From Bacteroidia bacterium (lineage in GTDB: Bacteria > Bacteroidota > Bacteroidia > UKL13-3), in NCBI GenBank assembly GCA_020049855.1, contig JAGVLJ010000074.1, positions 1 through 39,837 of the forward strand: DNA of 39,837 nucleotides, written 5' to 3'. The translations under genes and the position numbers were made by a program. Positions 6,580 through 36,802 of the stretch are shown in pieces. Within the stretch, counting starts at the first letter, position 1, and the number at the start of each line of letters is the position of its first letter. Under the pieces are notes generated by a model. The model ran no database searches. It was given only the letters and a program-made list of their open reading frames with translations, and had not been told where the DNA came from.

Positions 6580-7131
6580 TTATTTACCAGCCGATTTACC
6601 AGCTTTTCTTCTCAATTGTTCGTTTACAAACTTGATACCTTTTCCTTTGTATGGCTCAGGTTTACGCAAGGACCTGATTTTAGCAGCAACTTGCCCGACT
6701 AACTGCTTGTCAGCACTCTCGAGGGTGATGATTGGGTTTTTACCTTTTTCAGTTTCAGCTTTCACTTTTACTTCCTTAGGTACTTCCATATAAATGTGGT
6801 GAGAATAGCCAAGGGTTAAGTCAAGAATTTGACCATCGGTGCTAGCTTTGTAACCTACACCCACCAGTTCCTGCTTTAATTGATATCCCTGTGTAACTCC
6901 GGTAACCATATTATTGATAAGTGAACGGTATAATCCGTGCAATGCCTTGTGACGTTTACTGTCAGTAGGGCGGGCAACGGTTAGAACTCCATTGTCAATT
7001 TCTAATTTAATATCCGGATCAATAGTTTGCTTCAGTTCGCCTTTTGGACCTTTAACGGTAACAGAGGTGGGGGTTGTTTTTACTTCAACTCCTGAAGGAA
7101 CGGTAACGGGTAATTTTCCTATACGTGACAT
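6580..7131 (-). CDS. rplF: 50S ribosomal protein uL6
   Basis: Large-subunit protein at the base of the stalk near the factor-binding site. It has two tandem similar domains: [17 protein letters not shown] begins the first, and [19 protein letters not shown] starts the second, ending [20 protein letters not shown]. Length 183 is normal. Upstream of the start, GGAGG at 7143-7139 lies 7 bases from the ATG. That is a strong Shine-Dalgarno match, uncommon in this genome's other genes. Confidence 0.97.
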
Positions 7132-7146
7132 ACTTTTACCTCCCTA

Positions 7147-7906: not shown

Positions 7907-8461
7907 TTACTTATTTTGATTTTTAAAAGGAACTCCAAATTCTTTCAGAAGTGACAAGCACTCTTCATCAGTAGAGGCATCTGTAACAAACGTGATGTCC
8001 ATTCCCTGAATACGGCTTACTTTGTCAATATTAATCTCCGGGAAAATAATTTGCTCGGTTACTCCTAAAGTATAATTACCTCTACCGTCAAATCCTTTAT
8101 CATTAACCCCGTTAAAATCACGTACTCGCGGTAGAGCAACAGAGATTAAGCGATCAAGAAATTCATACATTTTATCTCCACGTAAAGTTACGCGGGTACC
8201 AATGGGCATATTAGCCCTAAGTTTAAAGTTGGAAATATCTTTTCTTGATTTGGTAGGTACAGCTTTTTGTCCCGCAATAAGAGTCATTTCTCCTACGGCA
8301 ACCTCTACCAGTTTTTTATCAGCTACCGCTGCCCCAACGCCTTGGTTGAGGCATATTTTGGTCAACCGTGGAACCTGCATTACGTTTTTGTAACCGAATT
8401 TTTCTTTCAGTGCAGGAACAACTGATTTTGTGTATTTTTCTTTAAGTCTGGGTGTATTCAT
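7907..8461 (-). CDS. rplE: 50S ribosomal protein uL5
   Basis: Binds 5S rRNA and contacts the P-site tRNA at the central protuberance. Visible are [20 protein letters not shown] near the N-terminus, [20 protein letters not shown] in the middle, and [17 protein letters not shown] followed by [15 protein letters not shown]. Length 184 is normal. Its ATG shares one base with the rplX stop (TAATG junction), implying translational coupling. Confidence 0.97.
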
Positions 8462-8799
8462 TACTTAATTACCTCCCCTGTAGTTTTAGCGTATCGAACT
8501 AATTTTCCATTTTCGTCAGCCTTGCGACCAATGCGGGTAGGCTTTCCATCATTTCCAATAACTTTTAAATTAGAGATATGGATGGGAGCTTCTTTCTCTA
8601 TAATTCCACCATTGGGATTTTGTGCGTTAGGCTTAGTGTGACGTTTTACAATATTTAAACCTTCAACTGTTGCACGGAGTTTTTGAGTAAAAATGGCAAG
8701 TACACGACCCTTCTGCCCTTTGTTGTCGCCACTAATCACCTGAACAGTATCGCCTTTTTTAATGTGCAGCTTTGGCTGCTTGTTAAATTTTCTTTGCAT
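8461..8799 (-). CDS. rplX: 50S ribosomal protein uL24
   Basis: Early assembly initiator of the 50S subunit. A KOW motif is visible near the N-terminus ([20 protein letters not shown]), followed by [13 protein letters not shown] and a C-terminal [20 protein letters not shown]. Length 112 is slightly above the E. coli 104. It overlaps rplE by one base and begins 2 bases after the rplN stop. Confidence 0.97.
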
Positions 8800-8801
8800 A
8801 A

Positions 8802-9170
8802 TTAAAGTACCTCCGGTGCTAATGATACAATTTTCATAAACTGTTTTTCCCTCAGTTCCCTGGCTACCGGTCCGAAGATACGGGTAGCTCTTGGTTCATC
8901 GGCAGCATTGAGTAACACACATGAGTTATCATCAAAGCGAATATAGGAACCATCAGCTCTGCGTACTTCCTTTTTGGTTCGTACGATTACTGCTTTTGAA
9001 ACAGTTCCTTTTTTAATGCCTCCTGAAGGAAGGGCATCTTTTACGGTGACCACAATTTTATCACCGATTGAAGCATAACGCTTGGCGGTTCCGCCTAATA
9101 CTCGGATACAAAGAACTTCTCTTGCTCCGCTGTTATCAGCTACTTTCAGCCTGCTTTCCTGTTGTATCAT
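8802..9170 (-). CDS. rplN: 50S ribosomal protein uL14
   Basis: Large-subunit interface protein, near bridge B8 and the site where silencing factors of the RsfS type bind. The start [20 protein letters not shown] and blocks [20 protein letters not shown] and [20 protein letters not shown] are diagnostic. Length 122 is exactly typical. Gaps of 2 bases on both sides show a tightly packed operon. Confidence 0.98.
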
Positions 9171-11256: not shown

Positions 11257-11526
11257 TTACTTGTCTTTCTTAATCGGGTGACCTTTAAATACGCGTGTAG
11301 GGGCGAACTCACCAAGTTTATGCCCTACCATGTTCTCAGTTACATATACGGGTATAAACTTGTTGCCGTTGTGAACAGCAAAAGTTTGTCCCACAAAATC
11401 GGGAGTAATCATGGTTCTGCGCGACCATGTTTTAATCACCGCTTTCTTTTTGCTTTCGGCTTGAGCTAGAACTTTTTTTTCCAGCTTTATATCTACGAAA
11501 GGACCTTTTTTCAGCGAACGAGCCAT
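11257..11526 (-). CDS. rpsS: 30S ribosomal protein uS19
   Basis: Head protein forming bridges to the 50S with uS13. Signatures are [38 protein letters not shown] and [20 protein letters not shown], then GEFAPTRVF. Length 89 is typical. It is placed between rplB (9-base gap) and rplV (2-base gap), the usual S10-operon order. Confidence 0.98.
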
Positions 11527-11535
11527 ATCTTCTTA

Positions 11536-12360
11536 TTACTTCTTACGTCTTTCAATAATAAATTTAGAACTTGTCTTTTTAGGATGACGTGTTTTGTACC
11601 CTTTGGCAAGTAAGCCTTTGCGTGAGCGTGGATGCCCCCCTGAAGCACGACCTTCACCACCACCCATTGGATGATCTACCGGATTCATTGCAACAGGACG
11701 TGTACGTGGTTTACGACCTATCCAGCGGCTGGCACCTGCTTTACCTTTACGCTCAAGGGTGTGGTCGGGGTTTGATACTGAACCGATAGAAGCCATACAG
11801 TTAGAAAGAATCATGCGGGTTTCGCCTGAACTTAATTTAACAATGGCATATTTACCGTCACGGTTCTGCAACTGAGCAAATGAACCTGCGCTGCGAGCAA
11901 GTTTACCTCCCTGACCGGGTTGCATCTCTATATTATATATGATACTTCCCAATGGAATTACAGTAAGCGGAAGCGCATTCCCAATTTCTGGAGCGGCTTT
12001 TGTGCCCGACATTATAGTTTGTCCTACTTTAATTCCTTGTGGAGCCAGAATATAACTTTTTTCTCCATCAGTATATTCAACCAGCGAGATAAATGCTGAA
12101 CGGTTTGGGTCATATTCAATCGTTTTTACAGTAGCTTCCATATCTACCTTGTTACGTTTGAAATCTATAATTCTGTATTTACGCTTATGACCTCCGCCAA
12201 TATAGCGCATGGTCATTTTACCGGAATTGTTACGCCCTCCTGATGCTTTTACTGGAACGGTAAGGCTTTTTTCAGGTATATTGGTTGTAATCTCTTCGTA
12301 CGAGTTTACAACTCTGAACCTGGTGCCCGGTGTTACTGGTCTTAATCTTCTAACTGCCAT
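11536..12360 (-). CDS. rplB: 50S ribosomal protein uL2
   Basis: Highly conserved protein next to the peptidyl transferase centre, needed for subunit joining. The OB and SH3-like domains are followed by the C-terminal segment [20 protein letters not shown], which contains the conserved histidine region, then [18 protein letters not shown]. The mid-region [20 protein letters not shown] is also typical. Length 274 is standard. Confidence 0.98.
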
Positions 12361-12368
12361 GACTTATC

Positions 12369-12659
12369 TTAAACGTTTTCAAAAAAATCAATTACCTGAC
12401 CTTCTTTAAGTGTAACAATCGCTTTTTTATAAGCAGGTTTCCTGCCTACTGATAACCCTTTACGAGTGAATCGGGTTTTATTTTTTCCTGCATGAATCAG
12501 GGTGCTGATAGTGGTTACATTCACATTGTACATTTTTTCAATTTCAGATTTTATCTGTGTTTTGGTAGCCAGTTTATCAACGATGAAACCGTATTGCTTT
12601 AACTTATCGGTTAAGGCAGTCATTTTTTCGGTTATTATCGGCTTCTTCAGTACGCTCAT
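12369..12659 (-). CDS. rplW: 50S ribosomal protein uL23
   Basis: Tunnel-exit protein and main docking point for trigger factor and SRP. Visible are KKPIITEKMTALTDKLKQYG, the basic IEKMYNVNVTTISTLIHAGK and the C-terminal GRKPAYKKAIVTLKEGQVID. Length 96 is normal. It begins 3 bases after rplD stops and is followed 8 bases later by rplB. Confidence 0.96.
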   Translation of the reverse strand: MSVLKKPIITEKMTALTDKLKQYGFIVDKLATKTQIKSEIEKMYNVNVTTISTLIHAGKNKTRFTRKGLSVGRKPAYKKAIVTLKEGQVIDFFENV

Positions 12660-22151: not shown

Positions 22152-25100
22152 TTAGTTGGCCTTGGCTGCTTCTAAAGCTTCTTGTTTTGAAGCCATAAGT
22201 GATTCGTATTCTTCGCGCGAACCAACTACTAACTTATCGTAGGCGCGGTTTCCCGTACCGGCAGGAATGAGGTGACCAACGATCACATTCTCCTTCAAAC
22301 CTAATAATTCATCTACCTTACCATTAATAGCGGCTTCGTTCAGCACCTTAGTAGTTTCCTGGAATGATGCGGCACTCATAAAGCTATGTGTACCCAGTGA
22401 GGCACGAGTAATTCCCTGTATCATCGCTCCTGCTGTAGCTGGAATTGCATTACGCACTTCAACTAATTTCTGGTCTTTACGTTTCAGCATTGAGTTCTCG
22501 TCACGCAGCTTGCGTACACTCACAATTTGTCCCGCTTTAAGGTTATTTGAATCACCTGCATCAATAACCACTTTCTTGTCGTAAATCCAGTCGTTCTCCT
22601 CAATAAAATCAAATTTATCAGCAGCCTCACCCTCAAGGAAACGGGTATCGCCCGGATCTTCAATTTCCACCTTCTGCATCATTTGGCGCACAATCACCTC
22701 AATATGTTTATCGCTGATTTTTACCCCCTGCAAACGGTATACTTCCTGAATTCCGTTGGTGATATAACGTTGTACTGAAAGTGGTCCTTCAATACGCAGA
22801 ATATCCTGCGGACTAATGGCACCATCAGATAATGGAGTTCCTGCTTTTACGAAATCATTTTCCTGAACAAGGATATGCTTAGAAAGAGAAACAAGGTATT
22901 TTTTTACTTGTCCGTCACGTGACTCGATGATGATTTCACGGTTACCACGTTTAATACCTCCGAAAGATACTACACCGTCAATCTCCGTAACCACTGCCGG
23001 ATTAGAAGGATTACGTGCTTCAAACAATTCGGTTACTCGCGGAAGACCTCCGGTAATATCTCGTGTTTTACCAATAGTACGAGGTATTTTCACCAGAATC
23101 TGCCCAGCTACCACCGCTTCTTTATCTTCAGCGGCAAGGTGAGCTCCTACCGGAAGATTGTATTCTTTCAATACTTCACCTTTTTTATCAACGATTTGAA
23201 TGGAAGCAATACGAGTTTTATCACGACTTTCAATAATCACCTTTTCTTTGTGCCCGGTTTGCTCATCACTTTCTTCGCGGAAAGTAATACTCTCGATAAT
23301 ATTCGAGAATTGCACCTTACCGGCAAATTCCGAAAGAATTACTGCATTGTATGGATCCCAACTGCAAAGCAAATCTCCCTTGGCAACTTTTTGTCCGTCT
23401 TTCACCATTAAATGCGCTCCGTAAGGAATATTCACAGTGATGATGATGGCACGAGTTTTTTCGTCCAGAATTTTCACTTCACCTTGACGACCGAGTACAA
23501 TTTGCACTTCGCCCTCATCGGTTTTGAAACCAACGCTACGCACTTCTTCGAACTCCAGAATACCTCCAAATTTAGCTGTGAGTTGTGACTCGGCAGCAAT
23601 ATTAGATGCAGTACCACCCACGTGGAAGGTCCGAAGTGTAAGCTGGGTACCCGGCTCACCTATTGACTGAGCCGCAATAACACCAACCGCTTCTCCGTCT
23701 TGCACCATACGACCTGTTGAAAGGTTGCGCCCATAACATTTAGCACAAATACCAAATTTGGTTTCGCAGGTTAACGCGGAACGGATTTCCATTGATTCAA
23801 TGGCTGAATTTTCAATTTTATTCGCAATATCTTCGGTTATCTCCTCGCCCGATTTAACAAGCAATTCTCCTGTTATAGGATCGTAAGTATCATGTAAAGA
23901 TACGCGGCCTAATACGCGTTCATATAAACTTTCAACTACCTCCTCGTTATCTTTCAAAGCTGAAATAGGAATACCCCGAAGTGTTCCGCAATCTACTTCT
24001 GAAACTACAACGTCCTGAGCCACGTCATGCAACCTACGGGTAAGGTAACCTGCATCAGCTGTTTTCAAAGCTGTATCTGCAAGACCCTTACGGGCACCGT
24101 GAGTAGAGATAAAATATTCAAGCACCGAAAGTCCTTCTTTAAAGTTGGAAAGAATAGGATTCTCGATAATTTCACCCGTTCCACCACTTAAGTTTTTCTG
24201 TGGTTTTGCCATCAATCCCCTCATACCTCCCAACTGACGAATTTGTTCTTTCGATCCACGCGCCCCTGAGTCAAGCATCATGTAAATTGGATTGAAACCT
24301 TGGCGGTCGGATGAAATTTGTTTTAACAACGTATCAGAAATACGCGAGTTGACACGAGTCCAGATATCAATTACCTGATTATAGCGTTCGTTATTGGTGA
24401 TGAAACCATTGTTGTAGTTACTCCAGATTTCTTCCACTTCCTGTTGGGCTTCGCTAATGAATTTTAGTTTCTCATCAGGAACGCGCACGTCTGAAAGGTT
24501 AAAAGAAAGACCTCCTTTGAATGCATTATGATAACCAAGTTCTTTAATGTCATCTAGGAATTTGGCCGTAACGGCAGTGCCGAATTGTTTTACAATACCC
24601 CCGATAATATCACGCAGGTTCTTTTTAGTCAATGTTTCGTTTATGAAACCGTGACCTTTTGGAACAACCTGATTGAAGATAACACGACCAACAGTAGTTT
24701 CGAATAACACATTTTCAATTTCACCTTTATCATTTTTCACATCTACTTTTACTTTGATGAATGAGTGCATAGCAACCCTCCCTTCATTGTAGGCAATGAT
24801 TACCTCCTCAGGTGAATAAAAACGCAACCCTTCACCCAAGGCTTTGTGGGTATCAATACCTCTGCGCCCTTTGGTGATGTAATACAATCCCAACACCATG
24901 TCTTGAGAAGGAACGGTGATAGGTGTACCATTGGCCGGGTTCAATACGTTATGTGGTGCCAGCATCAGCATCTGTGCTTCTAAAATAGCAGCATTGCCCA
25001 GCGGTACGTGAACCGCCATCTGGTCACCATCAAAATCCGCGTTAAACCCCGTACACACCAATGGGTGCAACTGAATTGCTTTTCCTTCAATCAACTTAGG

Positions 25101-26456
25101 TTGGAAGGCCTGAATACCTAACCTGTGAAGAGTAGGGGCTCGATTAAGCAATACAGGGTGACCTTTCAGAATGTTTTCGAGTATATCCCAAATAACTGCC
25201 TCTTTACGATCAACTAATTTTTTAGCCGATTTAACGGTTTTAACAATACCCCTTTCAAGTAGTTTACGAATAATAAATGGTTTGAATAACTCAGCCGCCA
25301 TCCCTTTAGGAATACCACATTCGTGCAATTTAAGAGTTGGTCCTACCACAATTACAGAACGGCCTGAGTAGTCAACCCGTTTACCAAGCAGGTTCTGACG
25401 AAAACGTCCCTGTTTACCTTTAAGCATATCACTTAAAGATTTTAACGGACGATTACCTTCTGTTTTAACAGCACTCACTCTTCGGGTATTGTCGAGTAAT
25501 GAGTCAACTGCTTCCTGCAACATGCGTTTCTCGTTGCGTAAGATTACCTCGGGTGCTTTTATTTCAATCAAACGTTTTAATCGGTTGTTACGAATGATTA
25601 CTCTGCGGTAGAGGTCATTCAAATCAGACGTAGCAAAACGGCCACCTTCCAATGGTACTAATGGACGCAATTCAGGAGGAATAACCGGAAGAATTTTAAT
25701 CACCATCCACTCCGGGCGATTTTCGGCTTTCTCATTAGCAGAGCGGAAACTCTCAATTACTTTCAGACGTTTTAGTGCTTCCGTTTTGCGTTGCTGAGAA
25801 GTTTCGTTGGCCGCCTGATGACGTAAACTGAATGAAAGGTCGTCCAATTTGGTACGTGATAACAAATCCCACAAGGCATCACCACCCATTTTAGCAACAA
25901 ATTTGTTAGGGTCTGTATCATCTAGATACTGATTCTCTTTTGGTAACGAATCAAGAATATCGAGGTATTCTTCTTCGGTTAATAAATCTAGGTAATTGGT
26001 TCCGTCTTGTGCCTTAATCCCCGGCTGAATAACGATATAGCGCTCGTAATAAATCACCATATCCAGCTTTTTGGTAGGAACACCTAACAGGTACCCAATT
26101 TTATTTGGCAATGACCGGAAGTACCAGATATGTGCAACAGGAACTACCAAATTGATATGTCCCATGCGTTCTCTACGCACTTTCTTTTCTGTAACCTCAA
26201 CCCCGCAACGATCGCAAACAATCCCTTTGTACCGGATACGTTTGTATTTTCCGCAATGACATTCAAAATCCTTTACCGGACCGAAAATGCGCTCGCAAAA
26301 CAACCCACCCATTTCAGGCTTATATGAACGGTAGTTGATGGTTTCTGGTTTGGTAACCTCACCGTACGATCTTTGCAGAATCGTTTCAGGAGAAGCAAGA
26401 CTAATCTTAATCTTGGTGAAGTTGCTTTTTAATTTTATATCTTTCTTAAATGACAT
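22152..26456 (-). CDS. rpoC: DNA-directed RNA polymerase subunit beta'
   Basis: Catalytic large subunit. The N-terminal zinc site is C66, C68, C81, C84 (ECHCGKYKR and CDRCGVEV). The catalytic Mg-binding motif NADFDGDQM starts at N472, giving D474, D476 and D478. The second zinc site is C823, C897, C904, C907. Length 1434 is typical for Bacteroidota. It starts 19 bases after rpoB. AGGAGG at 26472-26467, 10 bases from the ATG, is a perfect Shine-Dalgarno core, rare in this clade. Confidence 0.98.
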
Positions 26457-26475
26457 GTAATACTCTCCTCCTTAA

Positions 26476-36552: not shown

Positions 36553-36747
36553 TTATGCGATACTTTCTGACTGCATAAACTGCTTGTAAGCAGCGCGAAT
36601 AACCTGTTGTCTGCGTTTAATGCAGGGCTTGGTAAATGATTGTCTTTCTCTAAGTTCTTTTACAACACCTGTTTTTTCAAATTTCTTTTTGAATTTTTTC
36701 AGTGCTTTGTCAAGTGACTCGTTTTCTTTTACGTTTACAATGATCAT
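36553..36747 (-). CDS. rpsU: 30S ribosomal protein bS21
   Basis: A 64-residue basic protein at the 30S platform, where in Bacteroidota it helps hide the 16S 3' end (anti-Shine-Dalgarno). Signatures are MIIVNVKENESLDKALKKFK, KFEKTGVVKELRERQSFTK and KRRQQVIRAAYKQF. The mRNA leader predicted from the promoter is about 20 bases and has no AGGAGG, so a Shine-Dalgarno feedback loop is not evident. xerC begins 6 bases after the stop, indicating an operon. Confidence 0.95.
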   Translation of the reverse strand: MIIVNVKENESLDKALKKFKKKFEKTGVVKELRERQSFTKPCIKRRQQVIRAAYKQFMQSESIA

Positions 36748-36772
36748 ACAACTATTTTGAAAAATTGGACTG

Positions 36773-36802
36773 CAAATATAGAAGTTGCCGGCTAATTTTC
36801 AA
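36773..36802 (-). promoter_or_regulatory. Bacteroidota-type promoter of rpsU-xerC-hpf
   Basis: TTG (36802-36800), 19 bases, then TATATTTG (36780-36773) on the minus strand is a full consensus match. The start point is expected near 36766. It lies in the 65-base gap between the acyl-CoA dehydrogenase stop and rpsU. Confidence 0.85.

Follow-up and report, generated by a model that had tools for sequence, protein, structure and literature searches.

The window, that is, the whole stretch of DNA analysed here, is the 39,837-nt contig JAGVLJ010000074.1, the genome of which we label G000; G001 and G002 are its sisters from the same genus (g1). Against named Bacteroidota loci, the highest DNA identity of the window is 75.4%. 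Four of its genes, rpoC, rplF, rplE and rplX, are preceded by a strong Shine-Dalgarno (SD) sequence, and the window also encodes bS21, the product of rpsU (Table 1). SD strength was scored in 49 window ORFs as the ViennaRNA duplex energy (dG) between the region from -24 to -4 and a 16S rRNA tail, the sequence of which was taken from relatives. The start of the rpoC mRNA reads ...TTAAGGAGGAGAGTATTAC-ATG and that of rplF AATAGGGAGGTAAAAGT-ATG, while the SD of rplE sits within the final codons of rplX and the SD of rplX within the final codons of rplN (Pro-Glu-Val). At all four genes, the distance of the complementarity to the 16S tail from the start codon (7 or 10 nt) is within the 5-10 nt of a functional SD, and the next-strongest site in the window is that of rplN, with a dG of -9.0 kcal/mol. 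The four genes lie close behind the preceding gene (from a 1-nt overlap to 19 nt), and many equally packed genes of the window have no SD. The start region of rpoC shows less structure than its shuffles (z +1.5), and in the predicted fold the SD of rplF is partly paired. A first-pass annotation of this DNA had placed AGGAGG 10 bases ahead of rpoC and GGAGG 7 bases ahead of rplF, correctly as to both position and spacing, but its list was incomplete, as it passed over the equally strong sites of rplE and rplX.

Table 1. Coordinates of the SD sequences, the associated genes and the additional loci discussed in the text (energies in kcal/mol).
Feature	Position	Strand	Details
SD core AAGGAGG before rpoC	26467..26473	-	AGGAGG at 26467-26472; dG -11.1; 10-nt spacer
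rpoC (RNA polymerase beta')	22152..26456	-	NCBIfam TIGR02386
rpoB-rpoC spacer	26457..26475	-	19 nt (17 nt in G002); contains the rpoC SD
SD core GGGAGGT before rplF	7138..7144	-	GGAGG at 7139-7143; dG -12.2; 7-nt spacer
rplF (uL6)	6580..7131	-	NCBIfam TIGR03654
SD core GGGGAGGT before rplE	8471..8478	-	GGAGG at 8472-8476; dG -12.8; 10-nt spacer
rplE (uL5)	7907..8461	-	NCBIfam NF000585
SD core GGAGGT before rplX	8809..8814	-	GGAGG at 8810-8814; dG -10.9; 10-nt spacer
rplX (uL24)	8461..8799	-	NCBIfam TIGR01079
rpsU (bS21)	36553..36747	-	NCBIfam TIGR00030; sole bS21 gene in the genome
rpsU upstream region, no SD	36748..36781	-	dG +0.8; contains TATATTTG, a promoter-like element
Pirin gene	L148, ORF 8243-9104	minus (reverse-complement coordinates)
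397-residue protein	L159, ORF 11364-12558	minus (reverse-complement coordinates)

As a group, the four window genes exceed the chance expectation weakly. A dG of -10.9 kcal/mol or lower, a cut-off chosen after seeing the data, is reached by four of the 49 window ORFs against 0.59 expected from 4,464 mock windows (binomial P 0.003), and none of the five window ORFs with mechanical or TTG starts showed an SD upon re-reading. Outside the window, six of 518 ORFs reach -11 against 6.1 expected. In the full sample of 558 ORFs (722,100 bases), for which the longest ATG starts were used and some starts are therefore wrong, nine do so against about 6.4 per mock set. A genome-wide excess of strong SDs, seen in an early set of 233 ORFs (seven at or below -11 against 2.0 in the mock set), was dropped on these figures. 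Weaker sites are avoided in this genome, as a dG of -5 or lower is found at 87 of the 558 ORFs against 132.5 and 154.5 in mock sets and, outside the window, at 77 of the 518 starts against 129.5 expected, which bears out the earlier statement that most genes lack SD sites. The genome-wide AGGAGG frequency, which had been proposed as a test of the sites, proved to be at chance level, with 197 occurrences of AGGAGG-N(3-12)-ATG against 209 of the reversed-pattern control. This count favours a reading in which the AGGAGG of rpoC is a roleless chance match in two related species and only the ribosomal-protein sites are functional, as does the proportion of mock windows that reach -11 (about 1.1%), which corresponds to about 30 genes by chance if a total of 2,600 is assumed.

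The distribution of the rpoC site among relatives bears on the same reading. The rpoC start could be read in 49 of 58 family genomes (seven had no match), in 21 of 39 genomes from the rest of the class (one had no match) and in 79 of 80 named Bacteroidota loci; G001 was unusable for this comparison, as neither the rpoC start nor the rpoB end could be located in it. Within the family, the SD is present in two of the 49 genomes, G000 and G002, both of the window's genus, and the other 47 have sites weaker than -7. None of the 21 other class genomes reaches -7, and among the 79 named loci four reach -7, one reaches -9 and none reaches -11; outside the family, a site of the window's strength is thus missing from all 100 further Bacteroidota genomes that were read. 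Missing as well in 47 of the 49 family genomes, at -7, and in every one of the 21 class genomes, the rpoC SD looks newly arisen within one genus, and the suggestion that rpoC is a gene that keeps its SD finds no support as far as this comparison reaches.

In G002 (L083), the SD core of rpoC is identical and the start regions match apart from an indel of 2 bases, which leaves a spacer of 8 instead of 10 nt. We initially considered this near-identity as a sign of selection for the SD but rejected it, as neighbouring genes are equally conserved: 35/35 positions are identical between the two genomes at the starts of rplJ, rplK, secE, tuf and rpsU, and 34/35 at that of rplL, although rplJ, rplK, secE and tuf are without any SD. 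Since SD-less neighbouring starts are equally conserved, the conservation at rpoC has no SD specificity, which, together with the restriction of the site to two genomes, is in keeping with a chance match. On the other hand, the core has stayed intact despite a fourfold-site divergence between G000 and G002 of 0.45 in rpoC and 0.40 in rpoB. The rpoC site is real but confined to the genus, and conservation alone cannot separate it from chance.

Compared with background sites, strong SDs at other genes of the genus are more often retained, which also argues against a roleless match at rpoC. The 14 strongest SD matches of the sample outside the window were searched in both sisters; in G002, 11 of the 14 could be aligned from the protein start and 10 of these remained at or below -9.5, and in G001 six of the seven that could be so aligned did. 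For comparison, the aligned stretch from rpoC to tuf, which is mostly coding, has 82 strong complementary sites, that of rpoC among them, of which 40 remained at or below -9.5 when shifts of at most 2 bases were allowed (Fisher P 0.008), and the 10/11 figure is to be read with the choice of the strongest matches and the general conservation of start regions in mind. The strongest SD of the genome sample is that of a pirin gene, with a dG of -19.4 in G000, -14.8 in G002 and -16.3 in G001, and it is retained in both sisters despite diverged flanks. The other of the two clearest cases, likewise retained in both sisters, precedes the gene of a 397-residue protein, which found no match in Pfam or PADLOC (-17.3 in G000, -11.5 in G002 and -11.7 in G001). 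Weighing these points, we consider the chance-match reading of rpoC somewhat unlikely.

The ribosomal-protein sites have different histories. For rplF, 43 of 49 family genomes have an SD at -7 or lower and 22 of 49 one at -10 or lower, compared with 34.7% and 11.6%, respectively, of the mock windows taken upstream of the gene; across the family, the spacer that holds this SD is otherwise variable. The SD is found in 10 of 12 genera, being missing in g13 and g14, and outside the family 3 of 20 class genomes reach -7. Thus, by its distribution, the rplF SD is old within the family, and the expected conservation in relatives was borne out for rplF and failed for rpoC beyond its genus. The rplX SD includes a glutamate codon of rplN that is GAG, and not GAA, in 39 of 49 family genomes, whereas the other Glu codons of uL14 are GAG in 49 of 238 cases (Fisher P 6e-15, kinship ignored); this codon usage indicates that the rplX SD is maintained by codon choice. 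All three genus members have a strong rplE SD, at or below -10, as do 14 of 21 genomes from the rest of the class, but among the other 46 family genomes there is none; its presence in both the genus and most of the class genomes read makes it look ancestral. No SD precedes rpsR or rpsF in the genome of the window (dG +0.6 and +1.4).

The presumed partner of these sites is the 3' end of 16S rRNA. The assembly of the window's own genome has no 16S rRNA gene, but the 16S of the same-genus G001 and G002 ends in ...GGACCACCTCCTTTCT, with CCUCC intact in both. The 16S tail of G005 (genus g4; L197) carries GGATCATCTCCTTTCT in place of GGACCACCTCC and hence an altered anti-SD core, and genus g4 is also without an rpsU SD. 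Covariation of anti-SD and SD in G005 (CATCTCC, with AGGAGA before rplF) was considered and set aside as uninformative, as AGGAGA also occurs in genomes whose tail is standard.

The gene expected to bear an SD, rpsU, has none in any of the three genus members (L001, L313 and L330), the dG being +0.8 in G000 and G002 and -1.8 in G001, and in none of the three is it the ribosomal-protein gene with the strongest SD. Across the family, rpsU is present in 57 genomes and its upstream region could be read in 50. Forty of these, which represent nine genera, carry an extended SD at or below -13; the ten without an rpsU SD belong to g1 (3/3), g4, g5, g13 and g14. In a tree of four proteins from 59 genomes, g1 is basal in the family, with a support of 0.66 for the rest, g4, g5, g13 and g14 cluster (0.98), and so do the SD-bearing genera in the tree (0.965). 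A loss of the rpsU SD in the genus was considered but not retained, because the basal placement of g1, itself weakly supported, makes a single gain elsewhere equally possible. In g8, g10 and g12 (for example, in L316, L328 and L338), the main rpsU SD is preceded by another purine element, GGAGACT, and related GAGA(C/T) forms are found in the rpsU leaders of g2, g11 and part of g3.

The first-pass annotation had proposed a link between bS21 supply and the levels of RNA polymerase and uL6. In this model, ribosomes without bS21, the anti-SD of which is free, would preferentially start rpoC and rplF, so that a shortage of bS21 would raise beta' and uL6. In its favour are data from Flavobacterium johnsoniae, in which, by the account of McNutt et al. 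(2023; PMC9976891), ribosomes lacking bS21 favour rpsU and other strong-SD reporters. According to the same source, a tuf reporter with AGGAGGU rises more than 2-fold with a bS21 lacking its C-terminus, by 70% with bS21 Y54A and by 40-70% in a depletion strain, whereas AGGA is without effect. Consistent with such a model, Tyr54 of bS21 is conserved in all three genus members and, as noted above, the anti-SD is intact in both sisters with a 16S gene. However, rpsU, the sole gene shown to respond to ribosomes lacking bS21, is the one without an SD throughout the genus, and the rpoC SD is found in none of the family genomes that have an rpsU SD and were read for rpoC. Also, the energies of the four sites, -10.9 to -12.8 kcal/mol, all miss the threshold of -13 below which rpsU autoregulation is placed in that account (PMC9976891). 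We therefore regard the model as unlikely. Because rpsU has no SD here, the four SDs would not belong to a bS21 feedback loop based on SDs. Control of RpoC by bS21 is possible in view of the published reporter data but unsupported, as no result of this analysis connects the output of RpoC or uL6 with the supply of bS21.

A variant without feedback can be envisaged, in which the conserved SDs of rpoC, rplX, rplE, rplF, rplI, the pirin gene and the gene of the 397-residue protein serve chiefly those ribosomes whose anti-SD has been freed, and rpsU stands outside the set. Ribosomes that are poor in bS21 or otherwise incomplete would then raise RNA polymerase and large-subunit proteins and leave bS21 itself uncorrected; we hold such an open-loop regulon to be very doubtful.

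Based on the above, the explanation that we favour, if only modestly, is that the four sites are real SDs of moderate strength that aid initiation in an otherwise SD-avoiding bacterium, the rpoC site having been born within the genus. Each SD most likely contributes a measure of affinity for 30S subunits with a free 16S tail, and these would include subunits finishing the adjacent upstream gene. The added affinity would in turn support initiation inside tightly packed operons, an effect on translation that we infer from sequence. Given the published mechanism, a preference of ribosomes lacking bS21 for these starts would be expected, but it would be small. If such ribosomes do read the SDs of rpoC and of the large-subunit genes, the completeness of ribosomes would feed into transcription capacity, which would extend a mechanism demonstrated to date for just one natural gene. 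The family also constitutes a natural experiment: nine of its genera have an extended SD before rpsU and five lack one, which lets the roles of the rpsU site and of other SDs be compared among close relatives.

The sites described here have partial precedents. They resemble the extended rpsU SD of F. johnsoniae in motif and in their presumed partner, the 16S 3' tail, but are shorter and weaker than -13 kcal/mol, and in this genus rpsU itself is SD-less. The SDs of rpsR (bS18) reported in Bacteroidales, Cytophagales and Sphingobacteriales (Jha et al., cited in PMC9976891) are likewise moderate SDs in a class with a sequestered anti-SD, though in the present genome rpsR and rpsF are not among the SD-bearing genes. 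A further likeness is with the ribosomal-protein genes rplE, rplF, rplI and rplX, which are listed among the SD-bearing genes of some Bacteroidia by McNutt et al. (2023; PMC9976891) and are represented here by rplE, rplF and rplX in the window and by rplI elsewhere in the genome. The SD strengths given there have modes of -8 to -12, compared with -10.2 to -12.8 here as computed with a different program. rpoC, which is not a ribosomal-protein gene, differs from that set, and its name has no occurrence in the main text of that paper. Going by the set as given in that source, the sites of rplE, rplF and rplX fall within what has already been described for SD-bearing genes of the class.
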